This document shows positions 11,796-37,947 of a DNA stretch of 64,000 bases, piece by piece (within the stretch, counting starts at the first letter, position 1; each line of letters begins with the position of its first letter). The stretch comes from Ancylomarina salipaludis (GTDB taxonomy: Bacteria; Bacteroidota; Bacteroidia; Bacteroidales; Marinifilaceae). The notes beneath the pieces are model-generated. The model saw only the letters and a program-made list of their open reading frames with translations. It had not been told where the DNA came from and ran no database searches. Location: contig NZ_SAXA01000014.1 of assembly GCF_004122035.1 (NCBI RefSeq), positions 1 to 64,000 of the forward strand. The letters run 5' to 3'. Both the position numbers and the translations under genes were made by a program.

Positions 11796-11869
11796 TGACT
11801 CCAATGGGATTCAAACCCATGACCTTCAGAACCGGAATCTGACGTTCTATTCAGCTGAACTATGGAGCC
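11796..11869 (-). tRNA. tRNA-Arg(CCG)
   Basis: Folding the minus strand by eye gives acceptor arms GGCTCCA/TGGAGTC (one G-U pair), D stem GTTC/GAAC, anticodon stem TCAGA/TCTGA with loop TTCCGGT (anticodon CCG, codon CGG), T stem ATGGG/CCCAT and discriminator A. Length is 74 nt. The 3' CCA is not encoded. The gene stands alone between the exbD terminator and leuS, with its own -7 element (11880-11887) and terminator. Confidence 0.95.
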
Positions 11870-32502: not shown

Positions 32503-33777
32503 TTATTTTAAAGCAAAGTTGATAGGTACTGTGTATTGTACGCTGACTGCTTCACCTCTTTGTTTGCCTGGTGTCCATTTAGGCATAGCACTTACAACAC
32601 GAAGACCTTCTGCATCTAATGATGGTGATGCTCCTCTTGCTATTTTTACATCTTTAACAGCACCATCTTTATTAACTACAAAGCTGATGAAAACACGACC
32701 TTCAATACTGTTTTTTTGTGCTTCAGCAGGGTATTTCACATTTTGTGAGATCCAAGTTTGTAGTGCTTTTTCTCCTCCCGGGAATTGGGGCATTTCTTCG
32801 CATACTGCAAAAATTTGTTCACCATTTACAATATCTGATTTAATTGTGGTCTGATCCCCTTTTGAAATTGTGATAAGTTCTTCTTCAACTGGCTTTTCAT
32901 TTTCTGATGTACACTTTAAATTTAGTGTTAATGCAATCGCAATTGCCGGTATTATAAACAGGAGTCTTAACATCCTGTTTTTTGATGTATTGGTTTTCGT
33001 CATCATTATCATTCGTTTTTTAGTAATAGAGCAATTGAAGTTATTGGCCAGGCCCATCACTTCAACCCCCATTATTTGGTTTAAAATACTCGCCTGATAT
33101 TGTCCGATGTTGCAGCCTTGCGCAATAACCCCTTCATCAGCTAATAATTCATGCGTTTGTTTTATAGCGCGCTCAAAGAGCCAGACAAAGGGATTAAACC
33201 ACAATACGATTGTTGTTAATTCCACCAAAAGCAGATCGATCCAATGCTTTTGTTCCACATGTACTTTTTCGTGTGCTATAATATTTCTAAATGATTCAGT
33301 ATTTAGGTTTTTATTGTTTATTACAATTTTCCCAAGGAATGAGAAATTTGGTGTATCCTCATCAACTTTTATTAATTCTTGTCCTTCAAATTCATCTTTG
33401 GGATTGTTTTTTATAACCCTCTGGGTTTTGCAAATTCTGATAACAGATCTTAGAATTAAGATGAAACAAATTAAAACGTAAAGCCCTGTGAATAATTGTG
33501 ATGAAGAGAAGTTCTCTAATAAACCTGTTGATTCACTTGTTTTACTGCTTAAATTGATTGCGTTTAGCAGTAAAACAATATTTGAATTACCTGCAGAATT
33601 GGCAATTGCAAAATCCATCTTAACCAAGGGTAATATAAATGCCATTAGCAAAGAAGAGGCCAGATAAAAACGGATCCCTTTATAGAATTTTTCATCTTGT
33701 AAAAAGAAATGATAAACCCCATAAAATAAAGCTAAAGCAGCTGATGATTTAAGCAGATAAATATATAGGTCGTTCAT
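32503..33777 (-). CDS. BlaR1-like M56 peptidase fused to a TonB C-terminal domain
   Basis: The 424-aa membrane protein has helices at about 5-22, 36-55, 94-112 and 270-286. The zinc peptidase motif HExxH is present (H169-E-K-V-H173), placed before the last helix as in BlaR1/MecR1. The periplasmic C-terminus is not a penicillin-binding sensor but a TonB_C-type domain (about 330-424, with FPGGEKALQTWISQNVKYP and GRVFISFVVNKDGAV). In the BlaR1 model the peptidase relieves BlaI repression after a signal. Here the signal sensed is unknown. It is 1 bp downstream of blaI. Confidence 0.92.
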   Translation of the reverse strand: MNDLYIYLLKSSAALALFYGVYHFFLQDEKFYKGIRFYLASSLLMAFILPLVKMDFAIANSAGNSNIVLLLNAINLSSKTSESTGLLENFSSSQLFTGLYVLICFILILRSVIRICKTQRVIKNNPKDEFEGQELIKVDEDTPNFSFLGKIVINNKNLNTESFRNIIAHEKVHVEQKHWIDLLLVELTTIVLWFNPFVWLFERAIKQTHELLADEGVIAQGCNIGQYQASILNQIMGVEVMGLANNFNCSITKKRMIMMTKTNTSKNRMLRLLFIIPAIAIALTLNLKCTSENEKPVEEELITISKGDQTTIKSDIVNGEQIFAVCEEMPQFPGGEKALQTWISQNVKYPAEAQKNSIEGRVFISFVVNKDGAVKDVKIARGASPSLDAEGLRVVSAMPKWTPGKQRGEAVSVQYTVPINFALK

Positions 33778-33778
33778 G

Positions 33779-34150
33779 TTATTTATCTTTATTGATTTCC
33801 TTCTTTGTTATTTCAATCATCTCCTCCAAATCAGAAATACTTAAGTTGTTTTCTTTTGCAAAAAAGGAAGCCATTTTTGAAAATGACCCATTAAAATAGT
33901 CTTTTAATAAGCTCCCCATTTGATGTCCGGAATATTCTTCTTTTGTTATTTGAGGGAGGAATAAGTGAGTTTTCCCTTGTGGGATCTTAGTTACGAAACC
34001 TTTCTTCTCCAGAACTTTTAAGACTGTTGCCACAGTTGTGTAAGCAGGTTTTGGGGTATCAAATCTATCCACAATACTTCTCACATTGCTTTCTTTCAGA
34101 TCCCACAATATCTGCATCACTTGTTCTTCTGCTTTCGTCATTTGTTTCAT
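33779..34150 (-). CDS. blaI: BlaI/MecI-family transcriptional repressor
   Basis: The 123-aa winged-helix repressor (KAEEQVMQILWDLKESNVR, PAYTTVATVLKVLEKKGFV) has a C-terminal dimerisation part (about 75-123). It is the first gene of a two-gene unit with the M56-TonB_C protein. Two dyads of BlaI-operator type lie in its promoter (34191-34250), pointing to autorepression. No beta-lactamase is adjacent, so the regulated process is not necessarily beta-lactam response. Confidence 0.93.
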   Translation of the reverse strand: MKQMTKAEEQVMQILWDLKESNVRSIVDRFDTPKPAYTTVATVLKVLEKKGFVTKIPQGKTHLFLPQITKEEYSGHQMGSLLKDYFNGSFSKMASFFAKENNLSISDLEEMIEITKKEINKDK

Positions 34151-34317: not shown

Positions 34318-35004
34318 TTACATGATCAGCTTATATCCTTTACCATGTACGTTAATAATTTCGATATCTGTTTCCGGCTTAAGATGTTTGCGGAGTTTTG
34401 TAATGTAAACATCCATGCTTCGAGCGTTAAAATAATTGTCGTCGAGCCAGATAGTTTTAAGGGCAAAATTACGCTCCAATACTTCATTGGCATTATTGCA
34501 AAGGAGTTTAAGGAGTTCTGATTCTTTAGTTGTTAACTTGATTGCTTTTTCGCCATCGTGCAACAATTGCTTCTTCGAATCGAAAAGGAACCGACCTAAT
34601 TTGAATTCTTCCTGTTTGTTCTCATGTATGCCACCAGCTCTTCTAAGGACAGCCTCAATCCGAACCAAAAGTTCTTCCATACTAAATGGTTTGGTCATAT
34701 AATCGTCAGCACCCAATTTGAACCCTTCCAATACATCATCTTTCATTGATTTTGCAGTAAGAAAGATAATCGGAATTTCAGAGTTGATTAATCGAATATC
34801 TTTAGCCAGAGTGAAGCCATCACGATGTGGCATCATCACATCGAAGATACCAATATCAAAAGGGTTTTTTAAAAATGCATCGTATGCCTTATCTCCATCT
34901 TCGCATAAGGTCGTGTTGTAGCCCTTAGCTACTAAATATTCTTTAAGAAGAAGGCCGAGATTTGTATCATCTTCAGCCAATAAGACTTTTATTTCTTTTT
35001 CCAT
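34318..35004 (-). CDS. OmpR/PhoB-family response regulator
   Basis: The 228-aa protein has a receiver domain (1-120; acidic pocket E11-D12-D13, phospho-acceptor D55 in IFDVMMPHRDG, conserved K105 in DYMTKPFS) and a C-terminal winged-helix DNA-binding domain (about 130-228). It is encoded 5 bp after the histidine kinase and is surely its partner. The overall form resembles the RprY regulators of Bacteroides, but target genes cannot be read from the sequence. Confidence 0.94.
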   Translation of the reverse strand: MEKEIKVLLAEDDTNLGLLLKEYLVAKGYNTTLCEDGDKAYDAFLKNPFDIGIFDVMMPHRDGFTLAKDIRLINSEIPIIFLTAKSMKDDVLEGFKLGADDYMTKPFSMEELLVRIEAVLRRAGGIHENKQEEFKLGRFLFDSKKQLLHDGEKAIKLTTKESELLKLLCNNANEVLERNFALKTIWLDDNYFNARSMDVYITKLRKHLKPETDIEIINVHGKGYKLIM

Positions 35005-35009
35005 AATGT

Positions 35010-36524
35010 CTATTTTTTAAATGGCAGGTATACTTCAAATTTTGTGCCCTTTCCAAGGCTACTTTCTACACTGGCGTATCCACCGTGTGCATCAGCAATT
35101 CGTTTCACATAGGATAAGCCTAGTCCAAAGCCTTTTACATCGTGAACATTTCCTGTGTGTACTCTATAAAAACGTTCGAAAACCATTTTTTGATCTTCTT
35201 TTGATATGCCAATACCATTATCGGTAACAGATATCACAATTCCTTTGTCTTTGTTCCTTGTACTGATGCTTATTTCCGGAGCATCTTTACTATATTTTAT
35301 GGCATTGTCAAGTAAATTTGAAAGAAGATTACCTATATGAACCTCATCCAGCATTACAAGATCCTCTCTGGCATCAAGATGCTGGTAAGTGTTTCCTTTT
35401 CGATCTTCAACTCTAATCGTGAAGTTAGGCATAAGATTTTCAATTATCTTATGAACATTAACTGCTTTTAATTTTAGTTTCAAACGTCCTTCGTTAAAGA
35501 TAGCCATTTGTAAGACTTTTTCAACCTGATAACTTAATCTTCTGCTTTCATCGTTGATGATTTTAGCCATATGATTGATGCTTTCGGCTGTTGTAGTTAC
35601 CGAGCTATCTCTAAGCATCTGAGAGGCTAACGAAATGGTTGAAATAGGCGTTTTAAACTCATGCGTCATATTGTTGATGAAGTCATTCTTTATTTTAGAT
35701 AAACGCTTCTGTCTGAATATGATGAAGATCGTAAAGGCACAGCATAAAATCAAAATCATTGATAAAATCAATGAAGGAAATAGCATGGTGTACGACCTTA
35801 GAATGTATTTATGTAATCCTGGGAAAAAGATGTATAAATAATGTGAGTTTTTAAATAAATCGTTTGGAAATAATTGCTTGGAATATTTCTCAAGATGGTT
35901 ATAGTTAAAATAGTCTTTTGATTTCTTTACAAATAGGTTATTATCTGATTTTACTGCAAATTCAAAATCTAATTTAATTCCATTATTTTTTAACTTTTCT
36001 TTAATCAGTTTCTGGATTGAATTCAGGTCAATTCGTTCTTTCAGTGGCATGTTTGAACGAGCCATATGAGTGGCCATTCGGGATGTTTGAAATTGATTTC
36101 CCATAACCGAGAACAGGGATTGTGGGTCCTGAACTTTCTTCATCAGTTCACTGAAGCTTTTGGCATTCAGTTCGGTTTCTTTTTTGTAAAGGATTTTGTT
36201 CTCCTGATAGTAACTGACTTCAGCAGTTGGGTGTTGACCAGGGTTCAGTGGGAAATCGATTTTGTAACCGTAACCATTAATTTTTTTCTTTCTGTTGACA
36301 CCATTTGTCGGTTGATTGCTGCTACTGCCTTCGAGAATACTTTGAGCTTCGTCATCAGATTCCAATTCATCAACAACCTGGTCGAGCGCTTTACTTACTG
36401 TAAGTATAAACTGGTCTTCTTTAATTTTTGCTGTAGACTGGTAGTACTTGATCTGAATAAAGATTAGACCGCATAATGATATCGCTAAAACGATTGTTAC
36501 TAACCATATGTATTTTTTGCTCAT
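35010..36524 (-). CDS. membrane sensor histidine kinase
   Basis: The 504-aa kinase has helix 1 (about 7-25), a periplasmic sensor region of about 220 residues, helix 2 (about 248-270), then HisKA with H288 in FINNMTHEFKTPIS and a complete HATPase (N box LLSNLLDNAIKYS, G1 VTDNGIGIS, G2 GFGLGLSYVK). There is no HAMP domain of obvious form between helix 2 and HisKA. The sensor domain is not recognised. A TATATTTG -7 element lies at 36635-36628 on the minus strand, about 105 bases upstream. Confidence 0.94.
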   Translation of the reverse strand: MSKKYIWLVTIVLAISLCGLIFIQIKYYQSTAKIKEDQFILTVSKALDQVVDELESDDEAQSILEGSSSNQPTNGVNRKKKINGYGYKIDFPLNPGQHPTAEVSYYQENKILYKKETELNAKSFSELMKKVQDPQSLFSVMGNQFQTSRMATHMARSNMPLKERIDLNSIQKLIKEKLKNNGIKLDFEFAVKSDNNLFVKKSKDYFNYNHLEKYSKQLFPNDLFKNSHYLYIFFPGLHKYILRSYTMLFPSLILSMILILCCAFTIFIIFRQKRLSKIKNDFINNMTHEFKTPISTISLASQMLRDSSVTTTAESINHMAKIINDESRRLSYQVEKVLQMAIFNEGRLKLKLKAVNVHKIIENLMPNFTIRVEDRKGNTYQHLDAREDLVMLDEVHIGNLLSNLLDNAIKYSKDAPEISISTRNKDKGIVISVTDNGIGISKEDQKMVFERFYRVHTGNVHDVKGFGLGLSYVKRIADAHGGYASVESSLGKGTKFEVYLPFKK

Positions 36525-36916
36525 AAATGTAATTCTGACTTTCTGTCCCTCTTATAGACTGGGATTTAGTGGAAACTAAAAATGAATTTCTTATTGATAT
36601 TCAAATAAAAATCCGTTCTCATTGATACAAATATAGAAAAATACTAATGAGCTAATTCATGCTTAACAATCTTTAACGGAGCAAGAAAGCCTTAAAGTAT
36701 ATATGATTAATGAAATTTTTATAGTTTTTGTGTGAAAGGCTTTGTTTCTAAGATTAATAAATGACCACGTGTTGTTATTAACCTATCAATATTTACGAGT
36801 CAATATTTATTTATTCATGAGGTGTATTATTATAAATAGATATTTGCGTTCCAGTAGCCTGTCTTGATTGATAATATGTTATAGGACATTTTAGCTTATT
36901 TTTCACAATTATAATG

Positions 36917-36945
36917 TTGAATTTAATTTCAAGATCTTATTTTTG
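36917..36945 (+). promoter_or_regulatory. Promoter of a candidate small RNA
   Basis: -33 TTG (36917-36919), 18 bp, -7 TATTTTTG (36938-36945). A good Bacteroidota match in a gene-free region, about 390 bases after the divergent kinase gene start. Confidence 0.5.
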
Positions 36946-36950
36946 CTCCC

Positions 36951-37034
36951 GAAGACTGAATTCTTGGTATTCATCTTCAAATTTTGGTTAATAGTTAGAA
37001 GAAAGGATGGTTGTGGTTACCATCCTTTTTCTTT
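36951..37034 (+). ncRNA. candidate small RNA (about 84 nt) with promoter and terminator
   Basis: A promoter ends six bases upstream. The RNA would start with a hairpin: GAAGA pairs TCTTC and GAAT pairs ATTC around a TCTTGGT loop (36951-36978). A short single-stranded U/A-rich stretch follows (36979-37001), and it would end in a rho-independent terminator (AAAGGATGG/CCATCCTTT, 37002-37028) with a T-rich tail. No open frame of useful length fits inside. The rest of the 856-bp gap (36525-37380) holds only the promoters of the flanking genes. Confidence 0.45.
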
Positions 37035-37240
37035 TTCTGTGTCCTGCCCAGAGTTATGCTGATTAGCTTTTCTCAGATATTAAGTAATAACTTGGTTCAT
37101 GTATTTTTTTTCTTTCAGTATCAGGTTAATTCCTATTAGTGTTTCGTTTGTATTTGCTTGATATGTTGTGTTCTAAGGGTGCTTTGTTTTTGTGTTTTTT
37201 AACGATGTAAAAGAGAAATCTTATCAATCGTTAAATTATA

Positions 37241-37270
37241 TTTGAAGCTAGATATTTTTGATTATTTTTG
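37241..37270 (+). promoter_or_regulatory. Promoter of the SPOR-domain gene
   Basis: -33 TTTG (37241-37244), 18 bp, -7 TATTTTTG (37263-37270). Two other TAnnTTTG matches (37237-37244 and 37253-37260) lie close by but lack a -33 at the right distance. The region is AT-rich, which weakens the call. Confidence 0.45.
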
Positions 37271-37380
37271 GAATCTATTCTGGAAATCTAAAAGGTCTTG
37301 ATAATCAGTTGTATTTGTATGATATATCTGTTGGATTGAATGAATAGGATAGGAATTAGTTTTGGAAAAATACATATCAA

Positions 37381-37947
37381 ATGAAGTATCCTTTTTATTT
37401 ACTTAGCTTAGTATTTGTTTTTTGTCTGTCATCTCTGAATGCACAAACATATGAAACAACTCAGAGCCTCGATTCTCTTGATCAGCAAGTTCAGGATACT
37501 ATGCATGTGAAAAAGATACAATTCTATAAAGGGAATGTAGAATTTATTGAGAGATTGAGATTGGATAATGAGGGACAGGGTAAAGTAAGAATTGTTGAGG
37601 ATTATCGTATAGATGATCTGCTTAAAATCGATCGGGCAGAGAATTCAGAGTTGCCCGGATTTCAGGGATATCGAATTCAGGTTTTCTCAGGTGGAGGACG
37701 TGATCGTGAAAAGGCTTTTTCCATTCGTCAGGATTTAGAAGAACGATTTCCTGAAGAAAAGGTGTATGTAAAATATCAAGCTCCGGATTTCAGAGTGCGT
37801 ATTGGCAACTTTAGGAATAAATTCGAAGCGATGTATTTGTATAAACAGTGTGTGAAATTATATCCTTATTGTTATCTAGTGAAGGATCAAATAAATTTAG
37901 TTGATCTTGAGTTGGAACAAAAAAATGTGATTGACGAAATAGAATAA
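37381..37947 (+). CDS. secreted SPOR-domain protein
   Basis: The 188-aa protein has a signal peptide (residues 1-21, ...SLNA) and a C-terminal SPOR domain (about 94-170) with the family's pattern GYRIQVFSGGGRDREKAFSI, then VKYQAPDFRVRIGNFRNKFEA. SPOR domains bind peptidoglycan strands lacking stem peptides at division sites, so a septal envelope role is likely. It is a single-gene unit with its own promoter and terminator. Confidence 0.9.
   Translation: MKYPFYLLSLVFVFCLSSLNAQTYETTQSLDSLDQQVQDTMHVKKIQFYKGNVEFIERLRLDNEGQGKVRIVEDYRIDDLLKIDRAENSELPGFQGYRIQVFSGGGRDREKAFSIRQDLEERFPEEKVYVKYQAPDFRVRIGNFRNKFEAMYLYKQCVKLYPYCYLVKDQINLVDLELEQKNVIDEIE

Follow-up and report, generated by a model that had tools for sequence, protein, structure and literature searches.

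A conserved small RNA gene upstream of rprX in the Marinifilaceae and its likely kinship with the FopS-like RNAs

Positions 36951-37034 (+ strand) of the DNA analysed here, a 64,000-nucleotide stretch from Ancylomarina salipaludis (the window), very probably form a real and conserved small RNA gene of about 84 nt, which we call type 1. Its conservation in relatives is the deciding evidence, and because of it we judge the locus genuine. Type 1 is conserved and is covered by no Rfam family at its cut-off. Taking all the data together, we consider it probable that it is a free-standing, trans-acting and diverged FopS-like RNA of the Marinifilaceae, located in the regulatory region of the rprXY two-component system.

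The gene lies in an intergenic gap of 856 bp (36525-37380), between a kinase gene that ends at 36524 and a gene that starts at 37381. A preliminary description of this DNA had reported a promoter, a 5′ hairpin and a terminator in the gap, and each was found in place, with the terminator stem and its U tract at 37002-37030. The promoter, TTG-N18-TATTTTTG (36917-36945, + strand), has its TTG at 36917-36919 and, after the N18 spacer, TATTTTTG at 36938-36945. It is of the sigma-ABfr type, the consensus of which (TTTG / TAnnTTTG) is quoted in PMC7366714; a blind scan for E. coli-type promoters found none at the type 1 gene. TTG-N18-TAnnTTTG is present with identical spacing in 14 of the 15 loci compared, the other locus (L015) having the -7 box only. 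On the same strand, the 5′ hairpin predicted by folding and by the 15-locus comparison (GAAGA..UCUUC, or GGAGA..UCUCC in other genera) occupies 36951-36978. It is followed by a conserved linker, AATTTTGGTTAATAGTTAGAAGAAAGG (36980-37006), which is the probable pairing region and has one variable position in 27 among the 15 loci, and by an intrinsic terminator and U tract (37002-37036), the final bases of the linker doubling as the foot of the terminator stem. The terminator was recovered by a blind scan that gave four terminator-like sites in 2 kb (shuffle mean 1.0), and its loop, TGTGGTT, is the same in 14/15 loci. The RNA has a predicted minimum free energy of -23.8 kcal/mol (z -2.68), with equal stability in 1 of 200 shuffles. 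The gene is defined by covariance model R1 and alignment A1; its start (36951) and end (about 37034) are placed from the consensus promoter spacing and the U tract.

DNA searches matched type 1 in 15 of 58 genomes, its own included: all five of the genus and ten from the rest of the family, with no match in 24 genomes from other families of the order. The entire element is 87-96% identical in the four other Ancylomarina genomes, and DNA alignment of the linker and terminator gives 87-93% in the ten further family genomes. The linker, AATTTTGGTTAATAGTTAGAWGAAAGG, varies at one position in the 15 loci and has 20 consecutive invariant bases; most of the terminator is likewise invariant in the alignment. 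Of 56 family genomes, 23 (from 7 of 17 genera) each hold a single match at 86-99 bits to model R1, which was built from the linker and terminator of the 15 DNA-matched loci; all remaining matches in the 56 reach 38 bits or less. Among 198 genomes of the order, our genome alone falls in the 86-99-bit range, with ten others at 30-41 bits. We rejected these ten, and the weak matches in other genera of the family, as homologues, since by eye they look like terminators beside GGTTAATA-like words. The exact linker pattern was found on 19 contigs of a named genome collection, all Marinifilaceae by NCBI taxonomy and labelled Ancylomarina, Labilibaculum, Marinifilum or Marinifilaceae bacterium.

Loss of the hairpins in relatives, which the preliminary description had named as evidence against the gene, was looked for and not found. 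The 5′ hairpin is predicted in all 15 loci, its position kept and its letters differing between genera; one outer pair is A-U in the five Ancylomarina loci and G-C in the other ten. In the terminator, 99.1% of 110 alignment cells are paired; two of its ten pairs have changed on both sides, which is not above shuffles (mean 1.5), and its covariation score was equalled by 1 of 500 shuffles. For both hairpins together, a covariation search with homologues, also proposed in that description, found that 3 of the 19 predicted pairs had changed on both sides. The covariation signal is modest and tracks the split between genera. In the other genera, the linker can also be folded into a weak hairpin.

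These data bear on whether the region encodes something other than a small RNA. Frames starting with TTG or ATG can be drawn in single loci, as would be expected of a small protein gene, but no frame is common in phase and length to the 15 loci, and a linker invariant at all but one position is unlike a run of codons; we regard coding as extremely improbable. The earlier proposal of a small RNA of about 84 nt agrees with the covariance search, with synteny, with the conserved promoter and with the absence of a frame common to the 15 loci.

A second alternative is that type 1 is the attenuated leader, a terminator-bearing 5′ UTR or riboswitch, of the gene at 37381, with which it shares a strand in the five Ancylomarina loci. 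The 3′ neighbour varies, however: that gene follows type 1 in these five loci, and opposite-strand genes in others. In nine of them (L006-L014), the opposite strand carries the next genes, judged from their sequences to be RNase III-like and FabF-like, yet the linker and terminator are still nearly identical. In addition, a separate block at about 37212-37326, conserved in five Ancylomarina genomes upstream of the 37381 gene, is perhaps that gene's own promoter region. A leader is therefore very unlikely. Of the two neighbours named in the preliminary description, the kinase stands (HisKA and HATPase_c domains), whereas the 37381 gene, named there as SPOR, matched no Pfam family at E <= 0.001; an RlpA-type NCBIfam model gives it 21 bits, and it is not the neighbour in the ten loci outside the genus.

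The sensor histidine kinase gene (35010-36524, - strand) adjoins an OmpR/PhoB-type response regulator gene (34318-35004, - strand) that matches the NCBIfam model for RprY (NF051850; 377.7 bits, cut-off 370), and the kinase was therefore taken as RprX. Its promoter has a -7 box, TATATTTG, at 36628-36635 (- strand). The earlier observation that the RNA borders the promoter of a two-component system extends to relatives, with type 1 lying beside the same kinase gene, upstream of it and transcribed away from it, in 14 of 15 loci. L015 is the sole homologue not beside rprX. A search for the kinase gave a match in 30 of 30 genomes, with best E values from 9e-175 to 1e-50 (29 at E <= 1.3e-85 and one at 1e-50). 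The 30 include three family genomes without a strong R1 match (G009, G027 and G058), indicating that the two-component system can exist without the RNA. Known RprXY systems resemble the neighbouring operon, but a small RNA beside rprXY was not found in the literature searched. Downstream of rprXY (32503-34150), a BlaI/MecI-type repressor gene lies beside one for an M56 (BlaR1-type) membrane peptidase with a TonB C-terminal domain.

The position upstream of rprX in 14/15 homologues could mean that type 1 acts in cis on rprX, or pairs with its mRNA, and so restrains the two-component system locally. Yet the RNA is transcribed away from rprX, L015 is located elsewhere, and the duplex predicted between the linker and the start region of rprX is unremarkable (-10.6 to -13.1 kcal/mol in the 5 of 14 loci where the start was located, values that stand without a shuffled control). 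We consider a local brake unlikely, and return to a free-standing RNA acting in trans.

According to PMC11697453, FopS-10 blocks SusC translation at the start region in Bacteroides thetaiotaomicron and is counteracted by RbpB, FopS RNAs are reported as conserved in Bacteroidaceae, and their induction by bile salts is attributed to a regulator called unknown. The Rfam search suggested in the preliminary description yielded no family for type 1 at cut-off, the tRNA at 11796-11869 being the sole match at gathering score in the whole window; the FopS model (RF04319) gives type 1 20.0 bits (E 0.39; gathering cut-off 56). Other Rfam candidates in the gap (ctRNA_p42d, sraA, L10/L20 leaders, mir-703 and others) were rejected as far below their cut-offs and mostly terminator or AT-rich matches.

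RF04319 at E <= 0.1 matches all 13 Marinifilaceae genomes searched, never above cut-off, which is exceeded in 26 of 149 genomes of the order. Four of the five matches in our genome form a tandem array on contig C54 (89237-90122; 33.0-34.5 bits), every copy being preceded by a TAnnTTTG promoter box and TTAACNNTCTTTAAC. The same contig has a SusC gene some 6 kb from this array. Another Ancylomarina genome (G001) has six matches, with FopS-like copies on four contigs (L107, L120, L132 and L177), as against one array of four in our genome, so the arrangement varies within the genus.

A second model, R2, built from 20 Marinifilaceae FopS-like RNAs without any type 1 sequence, detects type 1 in 15/15 loci (26.9-40.2 bits, rough E 4.6e-4 to 0.11). 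The best R2 match taken as unrelated, in 0.78 Mb of our genome, scores 29.0 bits; 14 of the 15 loci exceed this background, two of them by 0.1 bit only. Loci L003-L005 (29.1, 29.1 and 26.9 bits) are thus at background level, and L001-L002 reach 33.6-33.9 bits. From these scores, kinship with the FopS-like RNAs appears likely for the loci of other genera and for L001-L002, and marginal for L003-L005. In the other direction, R1 finds Marinifilaceae FopS-like copies at E values from 1.8e-4 upwards, and FopS genes of other families at 0.03-0.9, mixed with background. At E <= 0.1, it also detects weaker copies beyond type 1, some in tandem, with up to eight matches per genome including type 1; our own genome has one further copy (contig C1, 303734-303794; L082).

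The likeness to B. thetaiotaomicron FopS is also one of organization. Both are short RNAs with a sigma-ABfr promoter (14/15 type 1 loci), an AU-rich stretch containing GGUUAAUA and then an intrinsic terminator; both belong to groups that are multicopy within their bacterial family, and a relative of type 1 in the same genome matches SusC start regions, as described below. Unlike FopS, which consists of a single-stranded 5′ part and one terminator hairpin, type 1 has an extra 5′ hairpin (15/15 loci), lacks the UUUUUCAU..UUAGAUUUAAGG seed and occurs as one strong copy in each of the 23 genomes having it. It does not share the FopS R1/R1′ seed (UUUUUCAU..UUAGAUUUAAGGUUAA), having in common mainly UUCAU (in the window copy) and GGUUAAUA. 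It also differs in having no SusC match; and a search of its genome for RRM_1 proteins, the class to which the FopS partner RbpB belongs, gave no match, while the Bacteroides control matched. A parallel is provided by GibS of B. thetaiotaomicron, a FopS-related RNA with a different target set according to PMC11697453; the likeness is by description, not sequence. GibS differs in having another promoter type and in sharing the R1 seed.

The resemblance might instead be convergence, with type 1 belonging to an independent small RNA family whose AT-rich linker and terminator happen to look like FopS. In keeping with this, RF04319 scores are far from the cut-off (20 vs. 56 bits), terminators after similar words reach 30-41 bits in 10 of the 198 order genomes (our own excluded), the seed differs, a 5′ hairpin has been added, and the R1 scores of FopS genes from other families are intermingled with background. 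On the other hand, the two models cross-detect both ways among Marinifilaceae copies; paralogues of intermediate type have, by eye, GGTTAnTA, GGTTAGAAGAAA and a GG-GUGG-ACC loop in common; and type 1 promoters may bear a vestigial control site in the register of the FopS-like copies (see below). Convergence seems to us rather unlikely, and the balance of these comparisons leans towards type 1 being a diverged relative of the FopS-like RNAs. A second group of related RNAs (L016-L021, near position 1500) is found mostly near an outer-membrane-efflux-like gene; none of the six has TAnnTTTG, and an AACC-N16-CGTA sequence resembles, by eye, an ECF sigma promoter.

We propose that type 1 of Ancylomarina, Labilibaculum and Marinifilum would have a housekeeping promoter of its own, with transcription stopping at its intrinsic terminator. 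The near-invariant linker, AAUUUUGGUUAAUAGUUAGA, would then pair with a few mRNAs immediately 5′ of their start codons, most likely in trans, and block ribosome loading in the manner of FopS-10. By this analogy, we think it fairly likely that type 1 acts in trans by pairing at start regions. As to descent, it would most likely be a member of the Marinifilaceae FopS-like group whose targets have changed.

A change of targets is suggested by duplex predictions within the same genome, for which the FopS-like copy was represented by the linker common to the third and fourth copies of the C54 array. Start codons were picked by a simple rule, and 628 start regions were sampled from about one-fifth of the genome. 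Against 25 SusC start regions, the FopS-like copy gave a mean of -17.2 kcal/mol (shuffles -9.8; 0/40 as low), with 84% of regions reaching -12 vs. 19% for shuffles. It also beat shuffles on start regions in general (-11.7 vs. -10.1; 0/40), so the SusC excess is the strongest, not the sole one. The L082 copy showed a mild pairing trend, equalled by 3-4 of 40 shuffles. Type 1, in contrast, had no excess on the 25 SusC start regions (-9.19 vs. -9.31 for shuffles; 26/40 as low) nor on the sampled start regions, of which every third of the 628 was used (-9.70 vs. -9.64). Type 1 thus seems to have left the SusC role.

Near-complements of the type 1 linker over whole genomes were not above the reversed pattern, and there is therefore no firm support yet for pairing in trans. 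Five of seven linker-complement words showed no excess in start regions. The other two were borderline, at one mismatch threshold each and before multiple-test correction: TAACTATTAACC in 11 start regions at <=2 mismatches (shuffles 4.9 and 5.7, p 0.04 and 0.07) and AACTATTAACCAAAA in 12 at <=3 mismatches (shuffles 6.7 and 6.8, p 0.05). Single candidate sites 10-40 nt upstream of start codons precede genes that, named from reading their proteins, are ACR3-like transporter (two Ancylomarina genomes), AsnA-like, biotin-carboxylase-like (two genomes) and acetyl-CoA-synthetase-like; a second batch of 20 sites was chosen for a recurring word, and no rate can be derived from it. A LeuA-like gene, named in the same way, gave the best duplex (-22.8), with 4/60 shuffled linkers equal or better.

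A link between RprXY and the FopS-like RNAs is suggested by a shared DNA element. The sequence TTAACAATCTTTAAC (36663-36677), or GTTAAAGATTGTTAA on the rprX strand, is a proposed RprY site of the form TTAAC-N5-TTAAC found in all 14 rprX-linked loci, always 42 nt from the rprX -7 box and reading GTTAA-N5-GTTAA on the rprX strand. The pattern TTAACNNTCTTTAAC has five exact matches in the 4.15-Mb genome: the TTAACAATCTTTAAC site and one before each of the four array copies. The expected number is 0.56 per genome (300 shuffled patterns), which overstates the case because the pattern was refined after the sites had been seen; at one mismatch, its 13 matches are fewer than those of the reversed control (40). 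Stronger evidence than the rarity of the pattern comes from its fixed spacing and from its occurrence in other families; the tandem copies are not independent.

Among 40 distinct Marinifilaceae FopS-like copies, 37 have TTAAC-N5-TTAAC at <=1 mismatch (shuffles mean 1.6, maximum 4); spacers of 4 or 6 bases give 3 and 7 matches, respectively (shuffle means 1.4 and 1.7). In 31 of the 40, the distance from the start of the site to the -7 box is exactly 47 nt; four copies have no TAnnTTTG box. For FopS of other families, 27 copies were scorable, being those with the anchor word in 30 loci taken from a longer match list. GTTAA-N5-GTTAA at <=1 mismatch is present in 12 of the 27 (shuffles mean 0.7, maximum 3); at <=2 mismatches, 16 copies have it starting 63-65 nt ahead of the -7 box, 4 have it at another position and 7 lack it. 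Upstream of 30 kinase genes taken as rprX orthologues, it is found in nine at <=1 mismatch (shuffles mean 1.95, maximum 5) and exactly in five (shuffle mean 0.08). The other 21, including 20 of the 26 outside the family, have no such site (<=1 mismatch) within 350 nt upstream, and the autoregulation part of the idea is consequently not general.

The full site in the window stands 275 nt before the -7 box of type 1; in the 47-nt register, the promoter of the window RNA itself retains a degenerate site at best. In this register, two of the 15 loci (L007 and L011, both Marinifilum) have one mismatch, one has two, one has three and the window locus has four. The 47-nt register is the best on average of 101 in the 15 loci, a result driven by Marinifilum and obtained with related loci, for which no significance is claimed.

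OmpR/PhoB regulators bind repeats with a period of about 10 bp, and RprY is the putative binder of this repeat by virtue of its position at RprY's own operon. As the rprXY site is common to the FopS-like RNAs, the two-component system probably controls them through TTAAC-N5-TTAAC, and the data suggest that RprXY controls FopS. A broader proposal, which we judge to be evenly balanced, is that RprXY is the missing FopS regulator across the order: RprY would bind upstream of FopS and rprX, so that an envelope-type signal, in Bacteroides bile salts, would lead to the shut-down of SusC translation, and type 1 would be a diverged member beside the controlling operon, with new targets. A literature search, covering few subscription papers and no bioRxiv preprints, gave no link between RprXY and small RNAs and none for their control by RprY. 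A word search of the FopS paper for two-component or response regulator likewise gave no RprXY link in 12 of the 16 places, and the words motif, consensus, binding site and direct repeat were absent from the main text of two P. gingivalis RprY papers.

New here are the FopS-like arrays in marine Marinifilaceae, one RNA of which also matches SusC start regions, and RprY as a concrete candidate for the bile-salt regulator of FopS, with a DNA site of fixed spacing; no other lead here is as consequential as the possible link between RprXY and FopS. A second fixed element, ATGT-N6-ACAT, was also observed in 13 of the 27 FopS copies from other families (L192-L221), at -42 to -45 from the anchor CAT in 11 copies and at -76 in two (shuffles mean 0.11, maximum 1).
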